Source: Deltaproteobacteria bacterium
Lineage (GTDB): Bacteria > Desulfobacterota > Binatia > Binatales > Binataceae
Reading direction: 5' to 3'
Assembly: GCA_021794015.1 (NCBI GenBank)
Contig: JAJYRQ010000011.1
Span: 1-64,000, forward strand
DNA: 64,000 nt
The notes under the pieces were generated by a model, which searched no databases, was not told the origin of the DNA, and saw only the letters and a program-made list of their open reading frames with translations. This document shows positions 4,211-64,000 of this stretch, in pieces. The translations under genes were made by a program, and so were the position numbers. Each line of letters begins with the position of its first letter. Position 1 is the first letter of the stretch.

Positions 4211-5025
4211 GGCAGACGCTTGAACCGCGAAAAATCCGGGGCGCGCTTCTCGTTGAAGGCGTCGCGCCCCTCCTGCGCTTCCTCGGTCATGTAGTAGAGG
4301 AGCGTTGTGTTGCCGGCCAGTTCCTGCAGTCCCGCCATCCCGTCAAGCTCCGCGTTGAAGGCCGACTTAAGGCAGCGCAGCGCCATCGGGCTCATCGACA
4401 GAATCTCGCGGCACCACTGCAGCGTGGTCGCCTCGAGCTGCGCCAGCGGCACCACGGCGTTGACCAGGCCCATCGCGAGCGCCTCTTGGGCGCTGTAGCG
4501 GCGGCACAGGTACCAGATCTCGCGCGCCTTCTTCGGGCCCACCAGGCGCGCCAGTTGCACTGCGCCGAAGCCGCCGTCGAAGCTTCCGACCCGCGGCCCG
4601 GTCTGACCGAAGACGGCGTTGTCCGCCGCGATCGTTAAGTCGCAGACCACGTGCAGAACGTGGCCGCCGCCGATGGCGTATCCCGCAACCATCGCGACCA
4701 CCGGCTTGGGGATGCTGCGAATAATCTTTTGCAGATCGAGCACGTTGAGGCGGGGGACGCCGTCGGCGCCGAGGTACCCCTGGTCGCCGCGCACGCGCTG
4801 GTCGCCGCCGCTGCAAAACGCCTCGCTGCCTTCGCCGGTCAGGATAATCACGCCGGCCTCGGCGTCCTCACGCGCGTGATTGAAGGCGTCGATCATCTCA
4901 CGCACGGTAAGCGGCCGAAAGGCGTTCCTCACCTGGGGGCGGTTGATGGTAACGCGCGCGATGCCCTCGGCCTTCTCGTACCTGATGTCCTCGTAGGTTA
5001 CGACCGTCTGCCACTGCAGCGCCAT
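4207..5025 (-). CDS. menB: 1,4-Dihydroxy-2-naphthoyl-CoA synthase (MenB)
   Basis: A crotonase-fold enzyme (272 aa) that closes the naphthoquinone ring of o-succinylbenzoyl-CoA. The MenB hallmarks are present: [61 protein letters not shown], and a C-terminus ending in PDFSRF. The start chosen is ATG 5025 because a strong GGGGAG Shine-Dalgarno lies just upstream; an in-frame ATG at 5043 lies six codons further out. It sits between menH and menA in the operon. Confidence 0.93.
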
Positions 5026-5055
5026 TGATTCTCCCCTGTTCAATTCGGGTTCAAA

Positions 5056-5916
5056 TCACGTTTCATCGAGAAATCGGGCGACGACGCGGTTAAACGCCGA
5101 GGGCCGCTCCAGATGCGGCAGGTGGCCGGCGCCGTCGATGATCGCCAGGCGCGCGCGCGTGATTCCAGCCGCCATCGCGCGGGCGATGCCGGCGAACTTG
5201 AGGTCGAGCGCTCCGGCAACGAGCAGCGTCGGCATCGAAAGCCCGCCCAGGCGGTCCCCCAGCCAGGGCTGCGCGCCGGCGCCCATGGCGCGCAGGCTGC
5301 GAGCCAGCCCCGCAGGCGAGCATCGCAGGCGCGCGCGCCGCAACTCGTCTCGCGTTTCGGGCTCGAGCGCCGCCAGCGAATCGAACAGCGGCTTGCGCTC
5401 CCAACGCTCGACGAACGCCTCGATTCGCCGGCTTTCGGCAAATGCCGCCAACTCCCGGTCCGACCGCTTTCGCCGCATCCGCTCGGCGTCGTCGGCGATA
5501 CCCGGCGAGGCGCTTTCCAGAATGAGCCTTTCGACCCGCGACGGATGCGTCAGCGCGATCCAGAGCGCCAGCCTTGCGCCCATGGAATATCCGAGCAGCG
5601 CGAACCGGGGCGTGCCCAGACGGCCAGCCATCAGCGTCATGACCATCGTGGCCGCGCCCTGCATCGAGTAGTTTTGGAGGTCTGCTCCTGCCTGCGTGCC
5701 GCCGTGACCGGGAAGGTCGATACTGACCACCCGGCGCGCAGCCGAAAGCTCGGCGCGCAGTTCCCGCCAGCTCTCCTTGGAACCGGTGAAGCCGTGCAGC
5801 AGGACGACTGGCAGGTGCCGCGCCGGCGCGGCGCGCGGGCCCTCGTCGCTGAACTCCACGGTCGTCGCTCCCAGCGCCGCACACCCGATCACGAAAGGCC
5901 TCCCAACGGCAGTCAT
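5056..5916 (-). CDS. menH: SHCHC synthase, alpha/beta hydrolase fold (MenH)
   Basis: A 286-residue alpha/beta hydrolase expected to eliminate pyruvate from SEPHCHC to form SHCHC. The oxyanion region LLHGFTGSKESW, the nucleophile elbow LLGYSMGARLALW and the late histidine in DGAGHLPHLERP are visible. The ATG at 5916 overlaps the menD stop as ATGA; an upstream in-frame extension (to 6054) is a menD shadow. Its position between menD and menB is the main reason for choosing MenH over a general hydrolase. Confidence 0.87.
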   Translation of the reverse strand: MTAVGRPFVIGCAALGATTVEFSDEGPRAAPARHLPVVLLHGFTGSKESWRELRAELSAARRVVSIDLPGHGGTQAGADLQNYSMQGAATMVMTLMAGRLGTPRFALLGYSMGARLALWIALTHPSRVERLILESASPGIADDAERMRRKRSDRELAAFAESRRIEAFVERWERKPLFDSLAALEPETRDELRRARLRCSPAGLARSLRAMGAGAQPWLGDRLGGLSMPTLLVAGALDLKFAGIARAMAAGITRARLAIIDGAGHLPHLERPSAFNRVVARFLDET

Positions 5917-7697
5917 CCGCGCAGACAGCGCAGAGCCAGGTCGAGCGCCTGTTGATGGGCCTTGAGGTTTCGCGTCCGATCTCCGGTTATCTCCAGGAGG
6001 TGCAGACCCGGCTCCTTTAGCGCTGCGTCCACCGCGCTGCGGAAGCAATCCCATGACGCGACCCGCCGGTAGCGGGCGCGGCCCACGTCAGCGGCGCCCG
6101 CGAAGCTCACGCCGTGCGGCGTGCCGAAAAAAGTCTCGAAGACGCCCTTGTCCAGCGCAGCTTGCGGAAGGAAGGAGAAGATTCCGCCGCCGTCATTATT
6201 GATTACCACAACCAGCAGACTGATCGGATAGCGCGCGGCGATATGAAGCCCGGCAAGGTCATGAAGGAAGCTCAGGTCGCCCAGCACCAGGGCCGTCGGG
6301 CTCCGCCTGGCCGCAGCCGCGCCCAGCGCGGTGGAAAGAACGCCGTCGATCCCGCTGGCTCCCCGGTTGCAGCGCACCGACAGCGCGCATTGCGAATGCC
6401 CGGCGAAGGCGTCGAGATCGCGAACCGGCATGCTGTTCCCGACCTGGAGCAAGGAGCCCTCCGGCAGCAGCCCAAGCAGCTCGGTTACGACCTTGCCCTC
6501 GAACATTGTGCTCTCGGCTTTAAGCACCTGGTTGAGGGCATCACGCACCGCGCGCGCAGCCTCAAGCCAGGAATTACTCCAGTCATGAGACGGCGCGGCT
6601 AAGTCGGCCATGTCGAGCAGCCCAAGGCAGAACTCGGCCGCCTCGGCGCGCACAACGTCGGTGGCGATATGCAGCGGATCAGGCCACGTGCCGGGTTCGG
6701 CGACGATCAGGTGGGCGCGCCGGCGCCGATACGCCAGAAACTGTCCGAGCGCCTTGGATACCGGCGGATCGCCGAGCTGAATCACGGCGTCGGCCTGGTT
6801 GCGCGCAAAAAACCCCGGCTCCCGCAACAGAACGTCGTAGGCGTCCACCACCAGACTGCGGTCGTGACCGCCAAAGCGCAACCCTGAAAGCGGATCGGCC
6901 AGAATCGGCCATCCCAGCTTGCGCGCGAGCAAGGCAATCGCCCCCGCGCTGCCGGCCTCGAGGTTGGGGCCACAGACGATAAGGCCGCGTTCGAGGCCGC
7001 GCAACTCTTGCGCAATCGCCCGCAGCGCCCCGGATTCGAGCGTCGTCCGAAAGGGCCTGACACGGACGTAAGGCGCCTGCGGTCCTGGCTGCGCCGGCCG
7101 CGCGCGCAGCGCCTGGTCCTCCTCGGCGGCGTCAATCAGCGGCTCACGCATCGGCAGGTTCAGATGGACCGGACCGGCCGGCGGGCCGAGGGCGGCGCCG
7201 ACGGCGCGGCAGGCGATGGTCCGGTAATAATTTTCCAGGCCGTCCCCAGCCGACGGCGCGGCGACATCGACGCTCCAGCGCGCGTGACTGCCAAACATCC
7301 GCACCTGGTCGATTGTTTGCGGCGAGCGGCAATCACGCGCCTCGGGCGGGCGGTCGGCCGTGACCGCAATCAGCGGCACGCGGGAAAGCGAGGCCTCAAC
7401 CACTGCCGGCATGTAGTTGGCCGCCGCCGTGCCGGAGGTGCAGGCAAGCATCACCGGGCGGCGCGTCTCGCGCGCCAGGCCGATCGCAAAAAACCCGCCG
7501 GCGCGTTCCTCGAGCACCACCCAAGGCTTGATAGCCGTGCGCAGCAGGGCCGTTACAACCGCCGTCGAGCGCGATCCCGGCGAGACGCAAGCATCGGTAA
7601 CGCCGCAGCGCTCGAACTCCTGCAGCATCGCGGCGGCGGCCCGGCTATTGGGGTTACGCGGGACGCTCAATTTTGGAACCCCCAAGAAGGGCGGCAA
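5913..7697 (-). CDS. menD: SEPHCHC synthase, TPP-dependent (MenD)
   Basis: A thiamine-diphosphate enzyme that joins 2-oxoglutarate to isochorismate. The N-terminal signature is CVSPGSRSTAVVTALL, with the cofactor-activating Glu in VLEERAGGFFAIGLARE. The substrate loop reads RPPEARDCRSPQTIDQ, and the C-terminal TPP/Mg motif is GDLSFLHDLAGL followed by INNDGGGIFSFLP. The longest frame starts at a TTG (7697) inside menF. A TTG at 7670 is better placed, with GGGGG about 8 bases upstream, and would give 585 residues. The gene overlaps menF by 17-44 bases and menH by ATGA. Confidence 0.92.
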   Translation of the reverse strand: MPPFLGVPKLSVPRNPNSRAAAAMLQEFERCGVTDACVSPGSRSTAVVTALLRTAIKPWVVLEERAGGFFAIGLARETRRPVMLACTSGTAAANYMPAVVEASLSRVPLIAVTADRPPEARDCRSPQTIDQVRMFGSHARWSVDVAAPSAGDGLENYYRTIACRAVGAALGPPAGPVHLNLPMREPLIDAAEEDQALRARPAQPGPQAPYVRVRPFRTTLESGALRAIAQELRGLERGLIVCGPNLEAGSAGAIALLARKLGWPILADPLSGLRFGGHDRSLVVDAYDVLLREPGFFARNQADAVIQLGDPPVSKALGQFLAYRRRRAHLIVAEPGTWPDPLHIATDVVRAEAAEFCLGLLDMADLAAPSHDWSNSWLEAARAVRDALNQVLKAESTMFEGKVVTELLGLLPEGSLLQVGNSMPVRDLDAFAGHSQCALSVRCNRGASGIDGVLSTALGAAAARRSPTALVLGDLSFLHDLAGLHIAARYPISLLVVVINNDGGGIFSFLPQAALDKGVFETFFGTPHGVSFAGAADVGRARYRRVASWDCFRSAVDAALKEPGLHLLEITGDRTRNLKAHQQALDLALRCLRG

Positions 7698-51735: not shown

Positions 51736-52299
51736 ATGTTGATTCAAGCGACGCAAATCCGACCCGGGATGGTCATCGAACATAACAACGACCTGTGGCG
51801 GGTACTGACCATAAGTCATATCACGCCCGGCAATTGGCGCGGGATGGTACAGGCCAAATTGCGCAACCTGACCAGCGGCACTCAGACCGAGACACGCTTC
51901 CGCTCCGAAGACCGGCTCGAACGGGTCGTCCTCGAGCAGGTTACGATGGAGTTTCTCTACCAGGACGGCGACCTGTTCCATTTCATGAATACGCGGACCT
52001 ACGAGCAGGTGACCATACCAAAAGAGTTGATCGAGGAGGCGGTGCCTTACCTGGTGGCGAACCTGGCGGTCCAGGTGGAGTTCTTTGAAAGCCGGCCGCT
52101 TAACGTCGCGCTTCCCAAGACCGTCGCGCTCAGGGTCGCCAAGACCGAGCCGGGGCTGAAAAGCGCCGCGGTGACCAACACGCTCAAGCCCGCCACGCTC
52201 GAGACGGGAGCGGTGGTCCAGGTGCCGCACTTCGTTGTCGAGGGCGAGGTCATCACCATCAACACGGAGACCGGCGACTACGTCGGAAGGGCCAAATGA
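51736..52299 (+). CDS. efp: Translation elongation factor P with an Asn-tip loop
   Basis: A 187-residue three-domain EF-P that relieves ribosome stalling at polyproline. Domain I has IRPGMVIEHNNDLWRVL, and the end GEVITINTETGDYVGRAK is typical. The functional loop reads T30-PGNWRG: the tip residue that is Lys34 (beta-lysylated) in E. coli or Arg32 (rhamnosylated) in Pseudomonas is Asn33 here, with no length change relative to the KLRN block. Neither known modification can apply at that position; R35 is nearby. No epmA/epmB/earP is in the window. The THUMP methyltransferase follows by 13 bases. Confidence 0.9.
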   Translation: MLIQATQIRPGMVIEHNNDLWRVLTISHITPGNWRGMVQAKLRNLTSGTQTETRFRSEDRLERVVLEQVTMEFLYQDGDLFHFMNTRTYEQVTIPKELIEEAVPYLVANLAVQVEFFESRPLNVALPKTVALRVAKTEPGLKSAAVTNTLKPATLETGAVVQVPHFVVEGEVITINTETGDYVGRAK

Positions 52300-52312: not shown

Positions 52313-53521
52313 ATGCGTTCGAAACCGGCGAGAGAAGCTCCTGCCCCGCGCTCCGCTCAAAGCAGAGACGGCGCGGCCGCCGGCCGCGGCCTGCGTTTAA
52401 CGCCGGGGCTCTATGTTTTGCAGACCCAGCCCGGCTTCGAAGCCGTAGCGCTGGAGGAGGCCGCCGCTTTGGCCGGCGCAAGCCCCAAGGCCGACGGTGC
52501 TTCGGGCCGGGCGCGCAACGCCGTCGCTTTCAAAGCCGTCGGGCGGCGCACGGTGCCTAGGCGGTCGGGGATGGCGCTCATCCGGCTGGCGCGGCCCGAG
52601 GCTCTGGCGTTCGGCCGCACCTTCGAGGACGCCTTCGCCCTGGTAGGCTACTGTGCCGTGGCGCAGCAGGGGCGAGCTGCGCTGCTCAAGGTGCAGAGCG
52701 CCGCCTCCGATGCCGCGTTTATCGATCGGGCCCTTGCGACCAAGGGCCGGCTCTCTCCCGGCGGCCGCGCCGGCCACAGGCTGCGGTTTCGCGTGGTGGC
52801 TCGGCTTGCGGGACGGACCGATTTCTTACGGCGCGATCTCAGGCGCGCGGTCGAGGACGGTATCTGCCGGCGCGCCGATCGGGCATGGCGCATGGTCGAG
52901 GAGCGTCCCGACGTCGAGTTCTGGGCCACGATGCTTGGCGAGGAGTTCTTCCTCGCGCTCAGGCTGTCGGGGCCTCACGCGCAGCGCAGCGAGTCTCTGG
53001 CGGTTCAGCGGCCGGCGGCCTTGCGCCCTTCGGTCGCCGCGGCACTGGCGTGGCTTTCCAACCCTGCGCCCGACGACGTGGTGCTTGATCCGATGTGCGG
53101 CACGGGAAGCCTGATGATCGAGCGCGCCCGCCTGGGCCGCTACGCGATGCTGCTGGGGGGCGACCTTGCTCCACAGGCGGTTGCAGCCGCCCGCGCCAAC
53201 CTCGGCCATCGTTACAAACCGTGCGGGCTTGCGCGCTGGGACGCAAGGCAACTGCCGCTGCGCGACCAAAGCGTGAGCAAGCTTCTCTGCAACCTGCCCT
53301 GGGGCCTGACGCACGGGACAGCCGCCGACAATCGGCTTCTTTACCCGGCGCTGCTGCAGGAATTCATCCGGGTCTTGCAGCCGGGCGGCAGGATGGTGCT
53401 GCTGACCGCCGAAGGCTCGCTGATGCGCAAGCTCTGGAGCAGCCGCTTGCTGACGCCCGAACGCCTGCTGCACGTGACCATCCTTGGCCGTCCCGCCCAG
53501 GTCTACGCTTTGCGCCGCTGA
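52313..53521 (+). CDS. THUMP-domain RNA methyltransferase (Trm14/TrmN-like)
   Basis: A 402-residue protein. After a short basic leader, a THUMP RNA-binding region spans ~60-170 (GLYVLQTQPGFEAVALEEAA onward). A Rossmann methyltransferase follows: SAM motif I DPMCGTGSLMIERARLG near 265, LLGGDLAPQAVAAARANL, and the catalytic NLPWG motif near 327, consistent with guanine-N2 methylation of tRNA or rRNA. It lies 13 bases after efp and both act in translation. Confidence 0.82.
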   Translation: MRSKPAREAPAPRSAQSRDGAAAGRGLRLTPGLYVLQTQPGFEAVALEEAAALAGASPKADGASGRARNAVAFKAVGRRTVPRRSGMALIRLARPEALAFGRTFEDAFALVGYCAVAQQGRAALLKVQSAASDAAFIDRALATKGRLSPGGRAGHRLRFRVVARLAGRTDFLRRDLRRAVEDGICRRADRAWRMVEERPDVEFWATMLGEEFFLALRLSGPHAQRSESLAVQRPAALRPSVAAALAWLSNPAPDDVVLDPMCGTGSLMIERARLGRYAMLLGGDLAPQAVAAARANLGHRYKPCGLARWDARQLPLRDQSVSKLLCNLPWGLTHGTAADNRLLYPALLQEFIRVLQPGGRMVLLTAEGSLMRKLWSSRLLTPERLLHVTILGRPAQVYALRR

Positions 53522-53739
53522 GCCCCAGCCCACGCCGGGCGCCGCGCTCCGGCGCCAAGCCCCGACCCGTGCCGAGTGCCTCTGCCGGCGTGGCCGCCTG
53601 CGGCCGACGCCGTCGTGTCCACGCGGCAAACGCGCCCGCGCGAAGGCCGGCCGCGCCCGACGAAGCGTTGCCCTGATCCGCTGGAGTCTCGCCACAAGTA
53701 CTCCACTGTTCGAGTTCCCAGGGAGTCGTAACGGCAGCA

Positions 53740-54084
53740 CACGGCGCTGACGCCGGCGACCGGCGTGCCGGCGTTTCGGCTGGCGACTTTCGAAAGGCGT
53801 AGTCGAACGCGTGCAAGGCTGCCGGCTTGCGGCCGCTGCTGGTGCATGACCTCCGCCGGACAGCCGTGCGCAACATGGTCCGACCCGGCATCCTCGATGG
53901 CGTCGTGATGACGCTTTCGGGCCATAAGACCCCAAGTATCTTCGACCGCTACAAAATCGTGAGCGAGGCCGACCTTGAGCGAGCGGCCGAACGCCTGCAA
54001 TCCCATCTGGCCGGCCAACCGACCCAGAGCAAAATCGCTCCGATCGGTGCCCATCCGAATTCGGACCAAGAACCAAAAATCTGA
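53740..54084 (+). pseudogene. Tyrosine recombinase (integrase) C-terminal relic
   Basis: The catalytic core end of a phage-type integrase: HDLRRTAVRNMVRPGI (active-site Arg), VVMTLSGHKT (His) and IFDRYKIVSEADLERAAERL (nucleophile Tyr). In the same frame upstream, GDFRKA is followed by TAG at 53800-53802 and then SNACKAAGLRPLLV; relatives have Trp at that stop. Everything N-terminal to about residue GDFRKA is missing. It is inactive and marks the far end of the island from the tRNA cluster. Confidence 0.75.
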
Positions 54085-54189
54085 CGCGACGGAGAGTGCG
54101 AGGCGCTTCGGCGCCCAGATCCTCAATTTAAAGGCGCTGACTAGCCAGCGACACCTCGCCGCCACGCCGGCAACCGTGCTCGACGCCTC

Positions 54190-54208
54190 ATACAAACCCT
54201 TGTATAAT
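54190..54208 (+). promoter_or_regulatory. Promoter -10 box overlapped by a 6+6 palindrome (toxin-antitoxin operator)
   Basis: ATACAA-ACCC-TTGTAT (54190-54205) is a perfect inverted repeat. Its right arm overlaps a consensus TATAAT -10 hexamer at 54203-54208. This is the arrangement expected for autorepression of a toxin-antitoxin operon by an HTH antitoxin. The -35 region is weak. Transcription would start near 54215, so translation probably begins at the ATG at 54219 and not at 54207. Confidence 0.6.
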
Positions 54209-54557
54209 GCGTGGGCGAATGGTGAAGACGCTCTTCCGGCTCGGCTCGTCGCGGAGCGAGATCAGGAACTTTCCGGCCGACGCCAGACGGCGCGCCGGTT
54301 ACCAGTTGTATCTCGTGCAATCGGGGCTCGAACCCTCCGATGGGAAGCCTATGCCATCCGTGGGCGCCGGCGTACAAGAGATCGGGGTGCGCACCGGGAG
54401 GGAGCCTGGCGTCTTTTAGGTCGCGTAGTTCGAGGAAGCGGTTTATGCGCTTCATGCGTTCGAGAAGAAAGCTCGAAAGACGCCGAAGGCCGACTTGGAT
54501 TTGGCCCGATCCCGACTGCGGGAGTTACTGAGGCGGCGCGCGGCCACGGGAATTTAG
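54207..54557 (+). pseudogene. HigB/RelE-type toxin gene with two in-frame amber codons
   Basis: The reading frame encodes a Gp49/HigB-like toxin: VKTLFRLGSSRSEIRNFPAD, ARRRAGYQLYLVQSGLEPSD, KPMPSVGAGVQEI. After GVF comes TAG (54417), then VA, a second TAG (54426), then FEEAVYALHAFEKKARKTPK and ADLDLARSRLRELL to a TAG at 54555. Relatives have aromatic and Lys residues at the two stops (typically Y-V-A-K-F). No frame change is needed, only suppression of the two ambers. As written the toxin is truncated and probably dead. Confidence 0.7.
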
Positions 54558-54566
54558 GAGCAGGTG

Positions 54567-54875
54567 ATGAATATCGAGCGGTCATCCGGGAACGTGTTTC
54601 GAGACCTCGGCTTCGGACCAAAAGAGGCCGAGGGCCTGCGCTTGCGCGCCCAGTTGATGGCGGAACTCAAACGGCTCATCCAGGCGCGCAAGCTGACGCA
54701 GAGCTCCGCGGCCAAGCTCTTCGGAGTAACCCAGCCTCGGGTCAGCGACCTTGTCCGCGGGAAAATCGACCTGTTCAGCATCGAGACTCTCGTCGACATG
54801 CTGACCCGCGCCGGCATCCGCGTCCAGCTTCGACTGGCACCCGCAGGCCGTCCTCCGCGCCACGAAGCGGCATGA
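54567..54875 (+). CDS. HigA-like HTH antitoxin
   Basis: A 102-residue XRE-family antitoxin of the COG5606 type. The helix-turn-helix is at ~45-70 (QSSAAKLFGVTQPRVSDLVR then GKIDLFSIETLVDML), and the N-terminal FRDLGFGPKEAEGLRLRAQL is characteristic. ATG 54567 has GGAG at the right distance. It is the second gene of the toxin-antitoxin pair and remains intact although the toxin is broken. It should repress through the palindrome at 54190-54205. Confidence 0.82.
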   Translation: MNIERSSGNVFRDLGFGPKEAEGLRLRAQLMAELKRLIQARKLTQSSAAKLFGVTQPRVSDLVRGKIDLFSIETLVDMLTRAGIRVQLRLAPAGRPPRHEAA

Positions 54876-54915
54876 TTCGGCGCTCAAAGCAGTAACGAAG
54901 AATCGACGTTATTGT

Positions 54916-57900
54916 CTAAGCCCTGGCAAGACGCGGGTCCCGGATCACTAGCTGCCAATCCGGGCCTGAGCGAGCGAATGCAAAACGCGGGTCGTTCGCT
55001 ACCAGTCGAAAAGGCTGGCGGTCAGTAGACTCGACCGGAAGCCGCACTCGCCCATCCACCGAACAAAGTCGGAGCCCGCCGTCTTCCAACTGGCGAAGGT
55101 GGACCACACCAAGCCCATCGGCATTAGGAAGAGAAAACGGTTCGAAGTCCGGTGCTTTTGGACGCCGGTATTCTCGGAAGTCGCTGACAATTAGCTCCAA
55201 CCAGTCGACCGTAGTCGGAGAGACATATGGCCGTCTCTCGTCCAAAAAGCCGGGGTCACGCAGAACTCGGGCGATTTCGAACACGCTTGCGTCGGGTGAC
55301 GCAATCGATAGTGAGGCCAGTTCCGTGGACGCCACACGAGATCTAATGCCGGCCAGAAAAATTCGCGCGGCCAACTCATTAGGCACTCCTAATTCCAAGA
55401 GGAGCGCCAACCGTGCCAGGGGTTTAGCACGGTCTTCGTCCGCAGCCACACGAACCTGCTGAGCCGCCGCATGAATGATCCAGGTGAGCTGATAGCCCCA
55501 GAAGTCTTTGCAGATGCTCGCTGCCTCCTTGTCGACATCGCACAACCCCCGTAAGCTCTGCCCGCTTAACCATCCTTCTCTCAGCGCCTCCAGACGCGAT
55601 GCTTCCGGTGGATTACCTACTATTGGCGCTGCGTGCTGCCTCGCCCAATCCTCGATTTCCCGTACGGCGGACGTCAGCACCGAGAGCCTCTCGGGATTCG
55701 CCGCGATGGAATCAGCCACACGGGAAAAGACTCCGAGCGCGGCTTGCGCTTCAATGCCGACTCGCAGGGGGAGGCCAGATGACATTACGGCCCTTCGGCC
55801 AGCCACATCCGGTAGACGCACGAGCGCTGACTTTGCTCGGGCTCTCAGGAACTGCACGACATCTCGTGCATCGACTTCGCTCCCGCTGGCGCGAGCCTGG
55901 ATCGCTGCAAGCGATTGTCGGAAGACATCATCGATCCATGATTCCGGCTCGCCACCGCTAGGATTGACAAGATCGTCAAGTTGGAGTGCGAGTAGCTCAT
56001 CATCGAGCAAATCGCAAAGATCTTCACAGGCTCCAGCTCGATGTCCTAGCCTTGAGAAGTCATTGTTCGCTGCGAGTTCCAACAACACTTCGAACGCTAC
56101 TCCCGCCCTCGTCGCGATCTGGCGCAGTCGTTTGAGCAAGTAGAGCAGACCGCTTTCAACTCGATCGGCTGTTGAACTCTCAAAGTACTGTCGTGCCAGG
56201 GCTTCCTGATTTCGCACTTGATAATCTGTCTGGCTCTGGTCGATTGCATACAGAATCTTCCCTTCGCCGTCGACGAAAGCTCGACCAGCTCTCCCAGCTA
56301 TATTCCAAAAGTCGCGCTTGTCGATTGGGTATTGTCCCGTATATGGCGACGCTATGATCACACTCGATATCCCGACATTTACTCCCTGCGCGAGAGTGGT
56401 GGTTGCGATCACGATTTTTGGTGGCCCTGCGCGCATCAGGTGCTCCATCGCGAGGCGCACCTGCGGTGTAAGGCGGTTGCTGTGACACAGAACCCCGGCC
56501 CGCGCCGCCCGAACCTCGATCGCGCTATCGTCGAGCTCTTCTGAACAGACGGCGACAAAAATCTTCCACTCACGCCCAGGCCAAGAATAATCGGGTGACT
56601 CCTCGCCGAGCGCTAGCAAAACAGCTTTCGCAAGTGACGGTATGGAGGTTGCTTTTCCCGAGAATATCATCACCGGTCCGATCTCGGACAGACGCACTGC
56701 CGCGGCGGCGACGGCCTCGTTTTTGTCGCAGGGGAAATACTTTCTCCGTCTGCCGAAGCCGAGCGGCCGCGCAACGATGAAAGAGGGATTGAAGGACGGT
56801 ACCTCTCCCAGCCAATCCACACGCACACGCGACCCGTTCCAGCGCAGAATGCCAAAACGCTCGGCAGAAGGTTTCCAAGGCGAAATGGCAACCGCTTGCG
56901 AGTCAGCAGCTATCCACTCTGCAAGGTCTTGTGCGTTCGGCAGGACCGCAGACAGGAGTAGGATTCTAGCACCTGTCGTTCGCGCCGCACTACGGAGGTG
57001 ATCAACGAAAATTTCGTTTCTGACGTAGCGTTCGGACGGCCCCAAAAGATGGCCCTCGTCAATGATAAACAGCTTAATTTTCGCTAGGAGGTCAGGTGCC
57101 GCTCTCAGAAGCGCTCGCGCTTTCTCTGGTGTGACTATCGTAATCGCGGCCTCAGCCGCGAGCTCCGTATCGACGCTGCTGACACGTGATCCTCCGTACA
57201 GGTGGGACACCCCGTAGCCCAGCCAATTAAAAGTGTCGTTAAGCGACCGCTCTATTTCCAGCGCAAGTGACCGAAACGGAGCCAGGTAGAAAACGCGAGC
57301 ATCGTTGTCCGAAAGCAAGGTCTGCAAGATCGCGAGTTCAGCGACTCGCGTTTTTCCGGCGCTGGTGCGCAGGTTAATCACCGCGCCCCTATTGTTTTGA
57401 TCAAGTGCCAACGGGAGAGCTTGCCGCTGTGACGTCCAGAATTCCGTGATCGGATAACGAGCGAAAGCTAGAAGCTGAATATAGCGGCGCAACTCGTTTT
57501 GGTTGCCTGGCGGGAAATACGGTGGCAGAACCCGCCACGGTGAAGCATCGCCTAGGTCGCCGAGCATCAGTCGCAAAAGACGGACAACAGACCACCACCC
57601 CGGGTGTCCTCCCTCTGTGACGATCACGGTCGCGTCTTCAAGTTCCGCCAGCGCTTGCCGGAGCAGTTCGAAATCGCCGACGCAAATGAATTCGAGAGCG
57701 AGCGCTACGGCTCGCGCCACTGTAACCGTGATCGCCCATTCGTCGAGTTCGCCTTGCTCGCTGAAGTCTGCGTGATCCAGCAGCGTTGTCGAATTTATCG
57801 CGTGAACAAGACCTGGAATGTCCTTCCGAAGAAAAGCAGCAATGGCCCTTGCGGCGTCTGTCTGCTCTCTGACATTCCGCATGGTGACGAAAGCGCGAGA

Positions 57901-58284
57901 ATAATGCCCGGCTGCATAGAATGCCATCGCGGCTACGAGCTCGTGGAAACCGCTCTCTCTGGAGGATGGAGCCGACGGCCCGTGAACGTAATGAAGAAGA
58001 GAAGCGGCACGTTCTAAGCCATTGATGCCTACGGCCATTCTCTCGGGATCGTTAAGAGAAGAAGCGCGGGCGGTTTCGATGAGACTTGCCGCCGCTGCCA
58101 AAACCGAGTGAGCGGCGACGGAAACCTTGTCATCAAGGGCCGGGTCGAAGGCCGGAAAGTTCGCAGTGTCCTCTCGCACCTCGAACAGGACGTGCCTCGC
58201 CTGAGCCTGCGCGAAGAGGTTCCTCATCTGTGGCGCGTCAAATCTCAACAGTATCTGCCGCGCGGTTTCTTCGGGGATCGCCAT
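54916..58284 (-). CDS. hamB: Hachiman defence helicase HamB
   Basis: An 1122-residue superfamily 2 (Ski2-like) helicase. The N-terminal ~280 residues are helical. The ATPase core has Walker A NLRTSAGKTRVAEL (~304-317), motif Ia LAPFRSLALE, DEGH (409-412), motif III LLSAVLPN, motif V ATTTLAQGVNVGISSVI and motif VI WNIAGRAGRAFVD. A long helical C-terminal part follows. In Hachiman, HamB translocates on DNA and holds HamA inactive until it senses aberrant DNA ends. It starts 3 bases after hamA. Base composition is visibly less GC-rich than flanking host genes, consistent with transfer. Confidence 0.85.
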   Translation of the reverse strand: MAIPEETARQILLRFDAPQMRNLFAQAQARHVLFEVREDTANFPAFDPALDDKVSVAAHSVLAAAASLIETARASSLNDPERMAVGINGLERAASLLHYVHGPSAPSSRESGFHELVAAMAFYAAGHYSRAFVTMRNVREQTDAARAIAAFLRKDIPGLVHAINSTTLLDHADFSEQGELDEWAITVTVARAVALALEFICVGDFELLRQALAELEDATVIVTEGGHPGWWSVVRLLRLMLGDLGDASPWRVLPPYFPPGNQNELRRYIQLLAFARYPITEFWTSQRQALPLALDQNNRGAVINLRTSAGKTRVAELAILQTLLSDNDARVFYLAPFRSLALEIERSLNDTFNWLGYGVSHLYGGSRVSSVDTELAAEAAITIVTPEKARALLRAAPDLLAKIKLFIIDEGHLLGPSERYVRNEIFVDHLRSAARTTGARILLLSAVLPNAQDLAEWIAADSQAVAISPWKPSAERFGILRWNGSRVRVDWLGEVPSFNPSFIVARPLGFGRRRKYFPCDKNEAVAAAAVRLSEIGPVMIFSGKATSIPSLAKAVLLALGEESPDYSWPGREWKIFVAVCSEELDDSAIEVRAARAGVLCHSNRLTPQVRLAMEHLMRAGPPKIVIATTTLAQGVNVGISSVIIASPYTGQYPIDKRDFWNIAGRAGRAFVDGEGKILYAIDQSQTDYQVRNQEALARQYFESSTADRVESGLLYLLKRLRQIATRAGVAFEVLLELAANNDFSRLGHRAGACEDLCDLLDDELLALQLDDLVNPSGGEPESWIDDVFRQSLAAIQARASGSEVDARDVVQFLRARAKSALVRLPDVAGRRAVMSSGLPLRVGIEAQAALGVFSRVADSIAANPERLSVLTSAVREIEDWARQHAAPIVGNPPEASRLEALREGWLSGQSLRGLCDVDKEAASICKDFWGYQLTWIIHAAAQQVRVAADEDRAKPLARLALLLELGVPNELAARIFLAGIRSRVASTELASLSIASPDASVFEIARVLRDPGFLDERRPYVSPTTVDWLELIVSDFREYRRPKAPDFEPFSLPNADGLGVVHLRQLEDGGLRLCSVDGRVRLPVESTDRQPFRLVANDPRFAFARSGPDWQLVIRDPRLARA

Positions 58285-58287
58285 CGG

Positions 58288-59124
58288 TCAATCAAGCCCT
58301 TGGTAGCAATCTCTTACCAGTGAATCTGGATCAGCGACGCCCAGCGAGATCATCGCAAGCCGCACCAATTGACCGGGTGTTCCGCGCTGAACCCGATCCC
58401 TGGCATGTGTATCGCTCAGCAAGAGTCCCACGTAATCAAGTCGGAGCTTTCCTGAGGCGAACAACTCGGCGCAGCGTTCGATGCGTATGCCCTCATCGGT
58501 CCGACCCCCGTCGAACAGGTGGTCCGCAACGAACTGTAGTGACACCGGAATGCCGGCACGGTGCGAGCGCGCAAGATCAGAGACGATCTCTTTCACGGCA
58601 GCCACAGACGCTGTTTGTCTGAACTTCGACTCGCCCACGATAATCCGGACGGGGTCCGCATCAAGATCAAATGCGAGAACGTCGTCACCCTTCATTGACT
58701 GGTCGACATTTGGATTGTAGCGCAGCCGGTAGATGGGCACGGTCGCGCTTGTTGCCGCGCCGAGATATTCGGCCAGAACGATTTCCGCGAGGTTCCCTTT
58801 TCGGGTGTCTTCGAGAACCGGGAACCGCCCTAGGCGAGCCTGCTCAGCGCCGAAGCCTAACCGTATCATCGCCTGGCGACGACGTCGGCTCCTTCTGAGT
58901 TGCTCCTCGCTCGCGTGATACCGAACCAGCATCTCCCGGAATTGAGCTACCACACGATCCCGGTTGTTCTGTCTTTCAGACAGCGCGCGGTGCGGCACCT
59001 GAGTCACAGTTTGTAAGTCGGTCGCGCATAGGATCTCAGCAAATGCATGGGGCGTTGACGGATGTGGACCGAGGATTTGATCCGACCGGACGCTCGGGCG
59101 GGAAGAACTATGCGTTTCAGCCAT
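58288..59124 (-). CDS. hamA: Hachiman defence nuclease HamA (DUF1837)
   Basis: A 278-residue DUF1837 protein. The diagnostic core is RKGNLAEIVLAEYLGA, IYRLRYNPNVDQSMKGDDVL then IIVGESKFRQTASVAAVKEI. This gives a PD-(D/E)xK-type nuclease signature with acidic residues in GDD (146-148) and E165-x-K167. SLQFVADHLFDGGRTDEGIR follows. In Hachiman, released HamA degrades DNA and causes abortive infection. ATG 59124 is chosen over a TTG three codons upstream. It is the first gene of the hamA-hamB operon, 237 bases from tRNA-Lys. Confidence 0.87.
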   Translation of the reverse strand: MAETHSSSRPSVRSDQILGPHPSTPHAFAEILCATDLQTVTQVPHRALSERQNNRDRVVAQFREMLVRYHASEEQLRRSRRRRQAMIRLGFGAEQARLGRFPVLEDTRKGNLAEIVLAEYLGAATSATVPIYRLRYNPNVDQSMKGDDVLAFDLDADPVRIIVGESKFRQTASVAAVKEIVSDLARSHRAGIPVSLQFVADHLFDGGRTDEGIRIERCAELFASGKLRLDYVGLLLSDTHARDRVQRGTPGQLVRLAMISLGVADPDSLVRDCYQGLD

Positions 59125-59360
59125 CGAATCCAAGGCGTCTACCAGACGCTCTGTGGGATTTTCGGAGATCGGTGCGATCCGGTCAACCGCATCTACGGAT
59201 CAGACGACTCTCCTCGCTTGGGGGAGCAGAAGGCGTCAACGACCCGGCCCGAAGCGACGACGGCTCTTGACGAATGCGGGCACAAGGCGGGCAGTCGCGG
59301 CCAGTTGGCGCCGCGATGTCCGCGTTAGCCCCAGAAACGGTGTTTCATTTTGTGAGTTTT

Positions 59361-59436
<76 letters not shown>

Positions 59437-59473
59437 ATCTACCCGACTAACACCCCAGAGACCGGCGGTTGGG

Positions 59474-59550
59474 TGGGGTGAGTGAAGGGACTTGAACCCT
59501 CGACCACCGAGGCCACAACCCGGTGCTCTGCCAACTGAGCTACACTCACC
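59474..59550 (-). tRNA. tRNA-His (GTG)
   Basis: 77 nt including the extra G-1 paired with C73 (G+GTGAGTG with CACTCAC+C) and an encoded CCA. The anticodon loop TTGTGGC gives GTG. Confidence 0.95.
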
Positions 59551-59600
59551 GCCTAACGCTCTCTGCCGCAAGAACACCGCCGGCACTGTACCATCTACAC

Positions 59601-59677
59601 TGGCGCGCCAGGAGGGATTCGAACCCCCGCCCCGCGGCTTAGAAGGCCGCTGCTCTTTCCACCTGAGCTACTGGCGC
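59601..59677 (-). tRNA. tRNA-Arg (TCT)
   Basis: 77 nt, acceptor GCGCCAG/CTGGCGC, discriminator G and encoded CCA. Anticodon loop CTTCTAA gives TCT. Confidence 0.95.
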
Positions 59678-59680
59678 GGA

Positions 59681-59754
59681 TCGGGGCGAGCCGATTTGAA
59701 CGGCCGACCCCCTGCTCCCAAGGCAGGTGCGCTACCAGGCTGCGCTACGCCCCG
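59681..59754 (-). tRNA. tRNA-Pro (TGG)
   Basis: 74 nt to the discriminator base, acceptor CGGGGCG/CGCCCCG, anticodon arm CCTGC-CTTGGGA-GCAGG giving TGG. No CCA is encoded (ATCC follows), unlike the other three tRNAs of the cluster. It is only 3 bases from tRNA-Arg, so the four are likely one transcript, Pro first. Confidence 0.95.
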
Positions 59755-59825
59755 GCCTCGTCCATCTTTACCATGGGCCACAGCGCCGTCTCAAGCCGAC
59801 AGGGCGGCGCCCTGGCGCGCCAAGC

Positions 59826-60758
59826 CTACAACTTTAAGGCTCCGGCCGCCAGGATCGAGCCTGCCAAGAGGAGGCCGAACTCCAGATGCAGCCGGGCCGA
59901 CCCCAGCACCGCCCGGTCCAGCGCCGCGGGCGTGCTTTCGCTCAGGACCGGCCGCAGCGCGGCCCAGGCGTGGGGCAGCGTGAGCGCGGTGGCAAGGACC
60001 GTCCACGGCAACACGCCCGCCACCACTGCGCCGGCCGTTGTCACGTAGGCCGCCGCGCACAGAAGCGCCATCTCGGCCGCCGCCGCCCGCCGGCCAAACA
60101 GGTTTGCCAGCGTGGTCTTGCGATAGCGCGGATCGGTCTCGATATCGCGGACGTTGTTCGCATGCAAAATCGCCGTCACCAGAAAACCAACCGGCAGCGA
60201 AGCAACCAACGGCGCCCAGCCAAGCTCAAGCGCCATCACGAAGTAGCTCCCCAGCACGATAGCCGGACCCATGAAAATGAACACCGCAAGCTCGCCCAGC
60301 GCATTGTAGGCCAGCGCAAAGGGCGGCGCGGTGTAGAAGTAACCGGCCGCCACGCTCGGAAGGCCGATCACCAGGATCGGCCATCCGCAGGCGTAGCTGA
60401 GCGCCAAACCCGCCAGGCTGCCCGCGCCAAGGCAGGCCATCCCGCCCCACCACACCTCGTCGGCAGTCAGCAATCCCCGCTGAATCACCTTGCTGCCGCC
60501 CAGCGAATCGAGCGAGTCAGCGCCTTTGACGTGGTCGTAGTAGTCGTTGATAAGGTTCGTCCCGATGTGAATGGCAAGCGCTCCGGCCAGCGCCGCCAGC
60601 AGGCGAAACGGCGCGAAAAAGCCTGCCCGCACCGCCATAGCCGCCCCGACCAGAAGCGGCGTCACGGACGCGGTCAGCGAATAGGACCGACACGCCTCGA
60701 ACCACGCCTGCAGCCTGCCCGGCCCTGCCGCTTCATCAATCGACGGCGCCTCTGACAT
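59826..60758 (-). CDS. Second MenA/UbiA-family prenyltransferase
   Basis: A 310-residue UbiA-fold membrane enzyme with ~8 helices. The first Asp-rich motif is HIGTNLINDYYDHVKGADSL and the second ANNVRDIETDPRYRKTTLAN, very MenA-like. It is diverged from the operon MenA (3308-4210) and is not in a quinone operon. It could be a second DHNA prenyltransferase with different chain or substrate preference, or serve another aromatic acceptor. The ATG at 60758 follows a GGAAGG ribosome site. Confidence 0.82.
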   Translation of the reverse strand: MSEAPSIDEAAGPGRLQAWFEACRSYSLTASVTPLLVGAAMAVRAGFFAPFRLLAALAGALAIHIGTNLINDYYDHVKGADSLDSLGGSKVIQRGLLTADEVWWGGMACLGAGSLAGLALSYACGWPILVIGLPSVAAGYFYTAPPFALAYNALGELAVFIFMGPAIVLGSYFVMALELGWAPLVASLPVGFLVTAILHANNVRDIETDPRYRKTTLANLFGRRAAAAEMALLCAAAYVTTAGAVVAGVLPWTVLATALTLPHAWAALRPVLSESTPAALDRAVLGSARLHLEFGLLLAGSILAAGALKL

Positions 60759-61029
60759 GACCTGCCTTCCCCCCAAGCTGTTGCACAGTGCTTATCTTGC
60801 GCCAATTTGATCTCAAAAGCCCAGCAGCAATCCGCCCCGGCGGCCAAGTCCCTGACACCTTACCCGTCAAGACAGGTCGCCCAACAAACCCGTCCGCACG
60901 CCGCCGGGGCCAAGGAAACCCCCGACGACGCCGGCCAACCGGGCTTGCCGTTTTACGCCCGCCCTCATTGAGCTAGACTAGCGGCGGGCGGCGCGGCCAG
61001 CCCGCGCCTGTCCTTGCGGGAGAACCACC

Positions 61030-62319
61030 ATGAAACTCGATGAGCAATCGCAGCCGACCCCTGCCGAACAAGCGATAAGTCGCCGCAGAGCCCTCAAGGC
61101 AATCGGCCGAGTCGGCAAAGCCGCGGCGGCCGGCGCGCTGTTGCAGCCGCTGGGCCTGCTGCGCGCCGCCGCAGAAGCGGCCGAACCGATCAGAATCGGC
61201 GTGCTCCTGCCCAAATCAGGCACCTATGCCGTTCAGGGTTCGCACGGCCACCACGGGGCCCAGATCGCCGTCGACGACTTCGGCGGCAGCGTGCTCGCAC
61301 GGCCAATCGAGTTGGTCTGGGAGGACGAACCCAGCCCGCAAACCTCGGTGCAGAACATGCGCAAGCTCATCGAGGAACGCAAAGTGGCCGCCATACAGGG
61401 AGGGGTCTCAAGCGGCGACATCCTGGCGGTGATGCCGATTGCGCTGCGCCGGCGCGTGCTGCTGATGGCCACCGGGCCCAACGCCACCGAGATAACCGGC
61501 AAGAACTGCAACCGCTACACGTTCCGGGTCGATCTGCCCAACCGGGTAACTGTGCGCACGGTCTACCCCACGCTGTCCAAGCACGGCAAGAGATGGTACT
61601 TCGTGGTCGCCTCGTACGCCTGGGGAATCGACGCCTACAACCAGATGAAGGAGCTGCTGGTAAAGGACGGAGGCACGGTCCTGGGCTACGACCAGGCGCC
61701 GCTTGGCACCACCGATTTCAGTTCCTACATTCTCAAGATTAAACAGGCCGCCCCCGACGTCGTCTATTTGGGGCTGGGCGGCGCCGACCTGACCAATTTT
61801 CTCAAGCAGTTCCACGAGATCGGGCTGACCGGCAAAATCCCAATTTCCTCGCCGATCGTCAACGACTCGGACCTCTGGGCGGCAGGCCCCGAGGCGGCCA
61901 CGGGAACCTTCCCGAAGCTCTGGAACTACACCGGCCCCTACAACACGCCGCTAAGCGCCGCCTTCACCAGGAAATTCACCGCCAGGTTCGGCCATCCGCC
62001 GGAGGTTGAGGCGTGGCAGGACTGGTTCGGCGCAACGGCGATTCTCACCGCCATCAAGGAGACCCGCTCGACCGACTCGGCCAAGCTGGTCGGCTTTCTG
62101 GAGACGCACAAATTCGTCGGCTACAAGAATGCGCCAATCTACTTCCGCGCCTGGGACCATCAGCTTATCCAGCCGACCCTGGAAGTGACGGTCAAGCCGA
62201 AGATCACCGGCAAGTACGACTACTTCAACGTGATCGCCCAGTATCCGCGCCACGGCATGTCGCTCGAGGCCTTCTTCGGTACGCCCGAAGAAATCGGCTG
62301 CCGGTTGGGTCCGCTCTGA
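61030..62319 (+). CDS. LIV-type ABC transporter substrate-binding protein
   Basis: A 429-residue periplasmic binding protein (Peripla_BP_6/LivJ family). A twin-arginine-like leader (ISRRRALKAIGRVGKAAAAG) near residues 17-36 suggests Tat export. The mature part starts IRIGVLLPKSGTYAVQGSHG and has VAAIQGGVSSGDILAVMPIA, PDVVYLGLGGADLTNFLKQF and PPEVEAWQDWFGATAILTAI. It binds amino acids or related small carboxylates or amides; the ligand is not predictable. It is the first gene of the liv operon, with GGGAGAA before the ATG. Confidence 0.87.
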   Translation: MKLDEQSQPTPAEQAISRRRALKAIGRVGKAAAAGALLQPLGLLRAAAEAAEPIRIGVLLPKSGTYAVQGSHGHHGAQIAVDDFGGSVLARPIELVWEDEPSPQTSVQNMRKLIEERKVAAIQGGVSSGDILAVMPIALRRRVLLMATGPNATEITGKNCNRYTFRVDLPNRVTVRTVYPTLSKHGKRWYFVVASYAWGIDAYNQMKELLVKDGGTVLGYDQAPLGTTDFSSYILKIKQAAPDVVYLGLGGADLTNFLKQFHEIGLTGKIPISSPIVNDSDLWAAGPEAATGTFPKLWNYTGPYNTPLSAAFTRKFTARFGHPPEVEAWQDWFGATAILTAIKETRSTDSAKLVGFLETHKFVGYKNAPIYFRAWDHQLIQPTLEVTVKPKITGKYDYFNVIAQYPRHGMSLEAFFGTPEEIGCRLGPL

Positions 62320-62367
62320 GCGGGCGACCGGCGGCATCGCAGCCGCCCCGCCCGACACAGGTCTCGG

Positions 62368-63237
62368 ATGGACGCGATCGTCTCCCAGGCGGTCAACGGC
62401 TTGGTGCTCGGCTTCCTCTTCGTCGTCATCTCGATCGGGATGTCGATCATCTTTGGGACGATGGGAGTGGTTAATTTCGCCCACGGGGTCTTTTTCGCAC
62501 TGGGCGCCTACCTGGCTCTGACCATCCGTCCCATAACCGGGTATCCCGGCCTGCTGTTGCTCGCGCCGCTCGGCGCGGGCGCCGCAGGGATGGCGGTCGA
62601 GGCGTTGCTCCTGCGGCCGCTTTACGGCAAGGAGCCGCTTTTGGGGCTGGTGCTGACCTTTGGCCTTGCGCTGTTCATGGAGGAACTTATCCGAACCATC
62701 TGGGGTTCGACCGGCTACCCGTTTGACGGTCCGCGCTGGCTTTCGGGGTTTATCCAGTATGGTCCGGTGGTTCTGACGCGCTACCGGATGGCGGTGCTGG
62801 CGGTGACCGTGCTGGTGACGGGGGCGGTCTGGCTGTTCCTCGAAAAAACGCCCTACGGCCGGATCGTTCGGGCCGGCAGCCGCGACCCTGAGATGGTCGC
62901 GATGCTGGGGATCAATCTCAAGCGGGTTTTCACCTGGGTTTTCGGTCTGGGCACCTTGCTGGCCGGGATTGCCGGGGTGCTGGCGGCGCCGCTTTGGAGC
63001 GTGGTGCCCTCGATGGCCGAGAGCGCCATCATGCCCGCCTTCGTGGTGGTGACCATCGGCGGGCTGGGCAGCTTCGCCGGGGCGGTGGTCGGCGGCCTGA
63101 TTGTTGGCGTGACCTTCAGCCTGACCATCCAGTTCTGGCCGGCGGCTTCGAGCGCTTCGATGTACGTTCTGATGGCGATCGTGCTGCTGCTCAGGCCGCG
63201 TGGTCTGTTCGGCGAGCGCTGGGAGAGGTTTGAATGA
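62368..63237 (+). CDS. LivH-type ABC transporter permease
   Basis: A 289-residue inner-membrane permease with ~8 helices. Signatures are GMSIIFGTMGVVNFAHGVFF, the RAGSRDPEMVAMLGINLKRV coupling loop, and IGGLGSFAGAVVGGLIVG near the end. It pairs with the LivM-type protein that overlaps its stop by ATGA. It follows the binding-protein gene by 48 bases. Confidence 0.92.
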   Translation: MDAIVSQAVNGLVLGFLFVVISIGMSIIFGTMGVVNFAHGVFFALGAYLALTIRPITGYPGLLLLAPLGAGAAGMAVEALLLRPLYGKEPLLGLVLTFGLALFMEELIRTIWGSTGYPFDGPRWLSGFIQYGPVVLTRYRMAVLAVTVLVTGAVWLFLEKTPYGRIVRAGSRDPEMVAMLGINLKRVFTWVFGLGTLLAGIAGVLAAPLWSVVPSMAESAIMPAFVVVTIGGLGSFAGAVVGGLIVGVTFSLTIQFWPAASSASMYVLMAIVLLLRPRGLFGERWERFE

Positions 63238-64000
63238 GGCGGACGGGACAGGCGCTGTCTCATCCGCTGGTCGTCCTTGGCCTGGTCCTGGCGGTTCTGC
63301 CGTGGCTTTTGCCGGCGGTCGGCTCGACGGTAAGCCTGGCCACCGAGATTGCAATCTACAGTCTTTACGGAATCGGTTACAACCTGCTGCTCGGGTACAC
63401 CGGTCTGACCTCGTTCGGGGCCTCGGCCTACTTTGGCGCGGCGGGCTACGCTGCGGGTCTCTTCGAGATTCATCTTTTGCCCAGTGTTTGGGCCTCGGTG
63501 CTCGCGGGCACTGCTTTTGCGGCGCTGAGCGCGTTGGTCCTGGGTTTTCTGATTCTGCGGCGGCGCGGGCTTTACTTCGCGCTGCTGACGCTGGCCTTCA
63601 CGCAGCTTCTCTTCGAGATCGCGTTTCACTGGACCGAGGTCACCGGGGGCGAAAACGGTCTTCAAGGCGTGACCCGGCCCGGGCTGGACGATCCGCTGGT
63701 CTTTCACTTCTTTACCGTGGGGTGCGTGGCGGGATCGAGCTACCTCATCTGGCGCATGGTTCACTCGCCGTTTGGCCGGGTCCTGCAGGCGATTCGGGAC
63801 AACGAGGAGCGGGTGCGATGCCTGGGGTACAACGCCGAGCGTTACAAGCTGGCGGCCTTCGTGCTCTCCTCGACCTTCATGGGGCTGGCCGGGAGCCTGC
63901 TGACCTTTCTTATCCGCGGCGCTTACGCGGACAATCTCGGCTGGCAGCATGCGGGGGACCCGGTGGTGATGACGGTACTGGGTGGAATGCACCATTTCCT
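63234..64000 (+). CDS. LivM-type ABC transporter permease (cut by window end)
   Basis: The first ~255 residues of the second permease. YSLYGIGYNLLLGYTGLTSF then GASAYFGAAGYAAGLF is the LivM core; LQAIRDNEERVRCLGYNAER is the cytoplasmic coupling loop and VMTVLGGMHHF the start of the conserved end. The ATG overlaps the livH stop (ATGA). The ATPase genes livG and livF are expected just outside the window. Confidence 0.9.
   Translation, partial: MRRTGQALSHPLVVLGLVLAVLPWLLPAVGSTVSLATEIAIYSLYGIGYNLLLGYTGLTSFGASAYFGAAGYAAGLFEIHLLPSVWASVLAGTAFAALSALVLGFLILRRRGLYFALLTLAFTQLLFEIAFHWTEVTGGENGLQGVTRPGLDDPLVFHFFTVGCVAGSSYLIWRMVHSPFGRVLQAIRDNEERVRCLGYNAERYKLAAFVLSSTFMGLAGSLLTFLIRGAYADNLGWQHAGDPVVMTVLGGMHHF

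Follow-up and report, generated by a model that had tools for sequence, protein, structure and literature searches.

Positions 1–64,000 (forward strand) of contig JAJYRQ010000011.1 from a Deltaproteobacteria bacterium of the Binataceae (GCA_021794015.1), hereafter the window, very probably carry a complete type I Hachiman operon, hamAB, in which, by analogy with the characterized system of Escherichia coli ECOR31, HamB would sense DNA ends or damage and activate HamA, with infection likely aborted. This is an ordinary Hachiman system, a kind of defence already known, as is the mechanism itself. The assignment follows from two intact genes, nearly full-length matches to the HamA1 and HamB1 models, retention of the catalytic residues and predicted folds that match ECOR31. 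Judging from sequence comparison, the host lineage probably gained the pair in an old tRNA-Lys island, between the tRNA gene and higA; the island has also decayed. The operon comprises the following features:

58288–59124, minus strand: hamA, encoding the nuclease subunit of Hachiman (HamA1, 278 amino acids), assigned by open reading frame, profiles and fold.
54916–58284, minus strand: hamB, encoding a Ski2-like superfamily 2 (SF2) helicase (HamB1, 1122 amino acids) with DEGH at residues 409–412.
59158–59186, minus strand: a weak promoter-like site upstream of hamA, a candidate only.

The open reading frames confirm two intact genes on the same strand separated by exactly 3 bases (58285–58287), as described in the initial annotation, which had also recognized hamA by its DUF1837 core and E-x-K nuclease signature. 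HamA indeed scores 56.5 bits (cut-off 25) with the Pfam family HamA, formerly DUF1837, and 313.7 bits, over nearly its full length, with the PADLOC HamA1 model PDLC00155; NCBIfam gave no match at E 0.1. It matches ECOR31 HamA (PDB 8vx9_A) by sequence as well as by predicted fold, for which this solved structure is the best match; the predicted protein has the nuclease fold. Residues D148, E165 and K167, which align with D119, E138 and K140 of ECOR31 HamA (counted off the sequence alignment), are invariant in all 39 aligned sequences, so the D-E(x)K motif is kept. The start was taken as the ATG at 59124, with an alternative TTG upstream at 59133 that would give 281 amino acids; it is uncertain, as a database copy (P0001, 239 amino acids) begins 39 residues downstream, and in the alignment the sequence of the longer form is common to relatives.

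For HamB, the proposed SF2 helicase is likewise borne out: the DEAD domain scores 85.3 bits and Helicase_C 23.0 bits, just under its Pfam cut-off of 23.5, while the PADLOC HamB1 model PDLC00192 reaches 1253.7 bits and covers residues 4–1119. NCBIfam returned only other helicases, all below their cut-offs. Profiles and model together show both the Ski2-like SF2 helicase and the long N-terminal helical region, and the solved HamB (PDB 8vx9_B) is matched with 218 bits by sequence; by predicted fold, the closest structures are 8vxa_A, 8vx9_B and 8vxy_B. The initial annotation had regarded the flanks of HamB as unfamiliar and suggested a diverged branch of Hachiman; such a branch might also have another trigger or output. 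Identity of HamA and HamB to their ECOR31 counterparts is indeed just 17–23% in structural alignments, and other PADLOC HamB models score HamB far below PDLC00192. That single existing model nevertheless spans almost all of HamB and also matches 37 of 37 relatives tested, and thereby every member of the alignment (38/38); among the 120 HamB matches listed, identity is 49–100% and 111 span at least 95% of the query. The predicted HamB structure is helical over residues 5–273, has strands at 1060–1114 and superposes on solved HamB with a TM-score of about 0.8. A new HamB branch is thus highly improbable, and we rejected it.

According to Tuck et al. (2024, PMC12278908), the ECOR31 complex surveys intact DNA with HamA kept in check by HamB; entry of a free single-stranded DNA end into the helicase leads to ATP hydrolysis and movement and thereby to activation of HamA, which breaks down phage and host DNA. 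Complex formation, sensing, nuclease release and defence in the present host we infer by homology to this system: on meeting a free or damaged DNA end, HamB would switch on HamA, whose nuclease would degrade the DNA of phage and host alike, abortive infection being the likely outcome. Two observations weigh against this account. The identity to the biochemically characterized system is low, so details of sensing may differ, and promoter-like sites occur at chance level (2 in the scanned region, 1.4 expected). The latter, together with the broken state of the adjoining mobile genes, could also indicate that hamAB is itself a relic, decayed or silent in the manner of the adjacent integrase and HigB; given a 4.2 kb open frame across two genes and the retention of invariant catalytic residues, we regard this as improbable.

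Base composition sets the operon apart, in agreement with the initial annotation. The GC content of hamA (0.583) and hamB (0.577) was compared with that of the whole window (0.664) and of seven measured neighbour genes, one of which (51736–52299) is nearly as low (0.601). The separation is clearer at third codon positions (GC3), with 0.613 for hamA and 0.598 for hamB against 0.77–0.84 in the neighbours (higA 0.77, six host genes 0.79–0.84). Both operon junctions are covered by a second, separate contig record (JAJYTL010000108.1, 9183 bases, from the proteobacterial metagenome-assembled genome [MAG] DX2.bin11), which over its whole length is 100% identical to window positions 54163–63345 and may come from the window's sample or from another.

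To place the operon, the same site was compared in relatives, of which four are referred to by locus: L133 (genome G025), L134 (G030), L135 (G009) and L136 (G028). In the window the site consists of the following features:

59361–59754, minus strand: tRNA cluster Pro-Arg-His-Lys, four tRNA genes (ARAGORN), conserved in the host's family.
59361–59436, minus strand: tRNA-Lys(CTT), the site anchor (ARAGORN), with hamA beyond its 3′ end.
59261–59360, no strand: about 100 bp past tRNA-Lys, homologous to L133, L134 and partly L136.
54876–59260, no strand: 4385-bp interval containing hamAB and short ends; the corresponding stretch measures 224 bp in L133, 123 bp in L134 and 134 bp in L136.
54564–54875, plus strand: HigA-like antitoxin gene (HTH_37, 88.7 bits), intact, 103 amino acids.
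54141–54557, plus strand: HigB-like (Gp49 family) frame with in-frame stops at 54417 and 54426.
53782–54084, plus strand: tyrosine integrase relic, C-terminal part only, recognized by profile and by the integrases of relatives.

A search of the family with the tRNA cluster gave a match in 41 of 41 genomes, several to single tRNA genes only; the comparison at the site covered the 30 best of these 41, the host's included. ARAGORN found tRNA-Lys in 29 of the 30 loci, the exception lying at a contig edge. The same higA stands beside it in at least four of the 28 relatives with tRNA-Lys (G025, G030, G009 and G028, in the last case truncated by the contig end), a lower bound since some contigs stop at or near the tRNA (e.g., L081). 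These four represent four different genera, and their higA homologues are 76–89% identical to that of the window; HigA-like matches occur in 19 of the 41 family genomes; many of these are weak and lie at other places.

BLASTN aligned the window with L133 and L134 in two blocks, one of the tRNA cluster and the adjoining spacer (59754 to 59261–59263) and one of higA, higB and the integrase end (54875 to 53782). The sequence between the blocks lacks hamAB in both relatives, and in L136 the short gap is followed by the end of the contig inside higA; these are the empty sites that the initial annotation had proposed to look for. It should be noted that the 59260 end of the interval is approximate, as weak similarity to L133 may extend toward the hamA start. 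The integrase is intact in L133 (366 amino acids, Phage_integrase 76.5 bits) and L134 (403 amino acids, 69.6 bits), as are the Gp49-type HigB proteins. The relic noted in the window is real: its portion at 53827–54084 matches positions 129–167 of 172 in Phage_integrase, at 19.8 bits below the cut-off of 27.1, and is 73–76% identical to the C-terminal part of these integrases at the same site. The HigB family name rests on the intact homologues, to which the first part of the broken frame is 79–81% identical. In L135 (5042–6256), tRNA-Lys and a 43-nt copy of its 3′ end (6214–6256) flank higBA. The copy is identical at 40 of 43 positions (next best, inside tRNA-Arg, 30; other strand 23; shuffle 22), which is what an attachment repeat would look like; the integrase relic of the window has no match in this stretch.

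HamA was found in one of 41 family genomes (34 of them with a completeness of 90% or more and a contamination of 5% or less) and, at E 1e-20, in one of 148 genomes of the class, in each case the host. This confinement to the host among the genomes searched and the low GC3 of the operon jointly favour a gain. Alternatively, hamAB could be ancestral cargo of the tRNA-Lys island that relatives have lost, and it counts for this and against a gain that both flanking island blocks are common to relatives and that deletions would look alike. We consider it unlikely, as four relatives of four genera have tRNA-Lys near higA, with short gaps in the three measured, as the absence of HamA from the 40 other family genomes would require several losses against one gain, and as hamAB looks more foreign in composition than higA does (GC3 about 0.60 against 0.77).

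With respect to the route of this gain, we tentatively suggest, as somewhat short of an even chance, that tRNA-Lys, higA, higB and the integrase form a small integrative island with room for cargo between the tRNA 3′ spacer and higA, that hamAB entered there once, and that the integrase and the HigB toxin were then lost, fixing the pair beside an orphan antitoxin; decay of integrase and higB would leave hamAB fixed. Arrival on an integrative element followed by fixation, as first proposed, holds in part. The sites of L133, L134 and L136 are free of hamAB; the integrase of the window is present as a C-terminal relic, and no attachment repeat was found. On the far side, a direct repeat of the tRNA-Lys 3′ end was detected neither in the window nor in the host genome (up to 3 mismatches), except for a single 3-mismatch match on contig C24 inside a stretch matching the tRNA-Lys gene. 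Whether direct or inverted, sequence shared by the two insertion ends runs to at most 7 bases (shuffles 6 to 11); this too speaks against the proposed gain.

The intact higA is apparently an orphaned antitoxin beside the broken HigB-like frame and lies tail to tail with hamB. A methyltransferase gene (53521–53782) adjoins the integrase relic, and BLASTN did not find it in the compared stretches of L133 and L134. Compared with its counterparts in relatives, the window tRNA-Lys has a different D loop and T arm. An integrating element that exchanged the 3′ part of the gene could account for the T arm; it would not account for the D loop. In L134, a REase-ARP family nuclease gene (4929–5774) is located near tRNA-Ser and tRNA-Leu, about 4.7 kb from tRNA-Lys.

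The operon is a further intact Hachiman system, and it stands in a lineage where HamA was found in none of the 40 other family genomes searched. The part that goes beyond annotation is the site comparison: with the integrase intact in two relatives and broken here, the order of gain and fixation becomes testable.

Among known systems, ECOR31 HamAB (PDB 8VX9; Tuck et al. 2024, PMC12278908) shares the D-E(x)K nuclease HamA and the Ski2-like HamB with DEGH and is the best fold match of both window proteins; it differs in sequence, as the structural alignments show, and the window copy is known from sequence and predicted folds. From the PADLOC HamA1/HamB1 subgroup (PDLC00155/PDLC00192), matched nearly full-length, we found no difference. 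With the same models, HamAB of an Actinomycetes MAG (L073:56–13945) scores 315.7 and 1303.4 bits; its HamB is 60% identical to the window's, and its neighbours match DpdE/DrmD-like helicase, type IIG/DrmMI-like methyltransferase and HEC-05 models, forming a larger defence island. AbpAB of E. coli, a proposed Hachiman variant according to PMC12278908, also combines a nuclease with a Ski2-like helicase, but AbpA is described there as having an additional nuclease domain, Cap4-like, and a HamA-like domain that is inactive, in contrast to the window HamA with its 278 amino acids and intact motif. E. coli Hachiman genes near tRNA genes and integrases have already been drawn (PMC12278908, figure 1 legend; PMC10121019). 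The integrase-only islands of E. coli carry defence genes and an integrase without other known mobility genes, many of their hotspots are tRNA loci, and Hachiman is named in the figure 3 legend (PMC10121019). Defence genes, integrase and tRNA locus are common to these islands and the window; in the window, however, the integrase is a relic, and relatives hold the module without defence genes.
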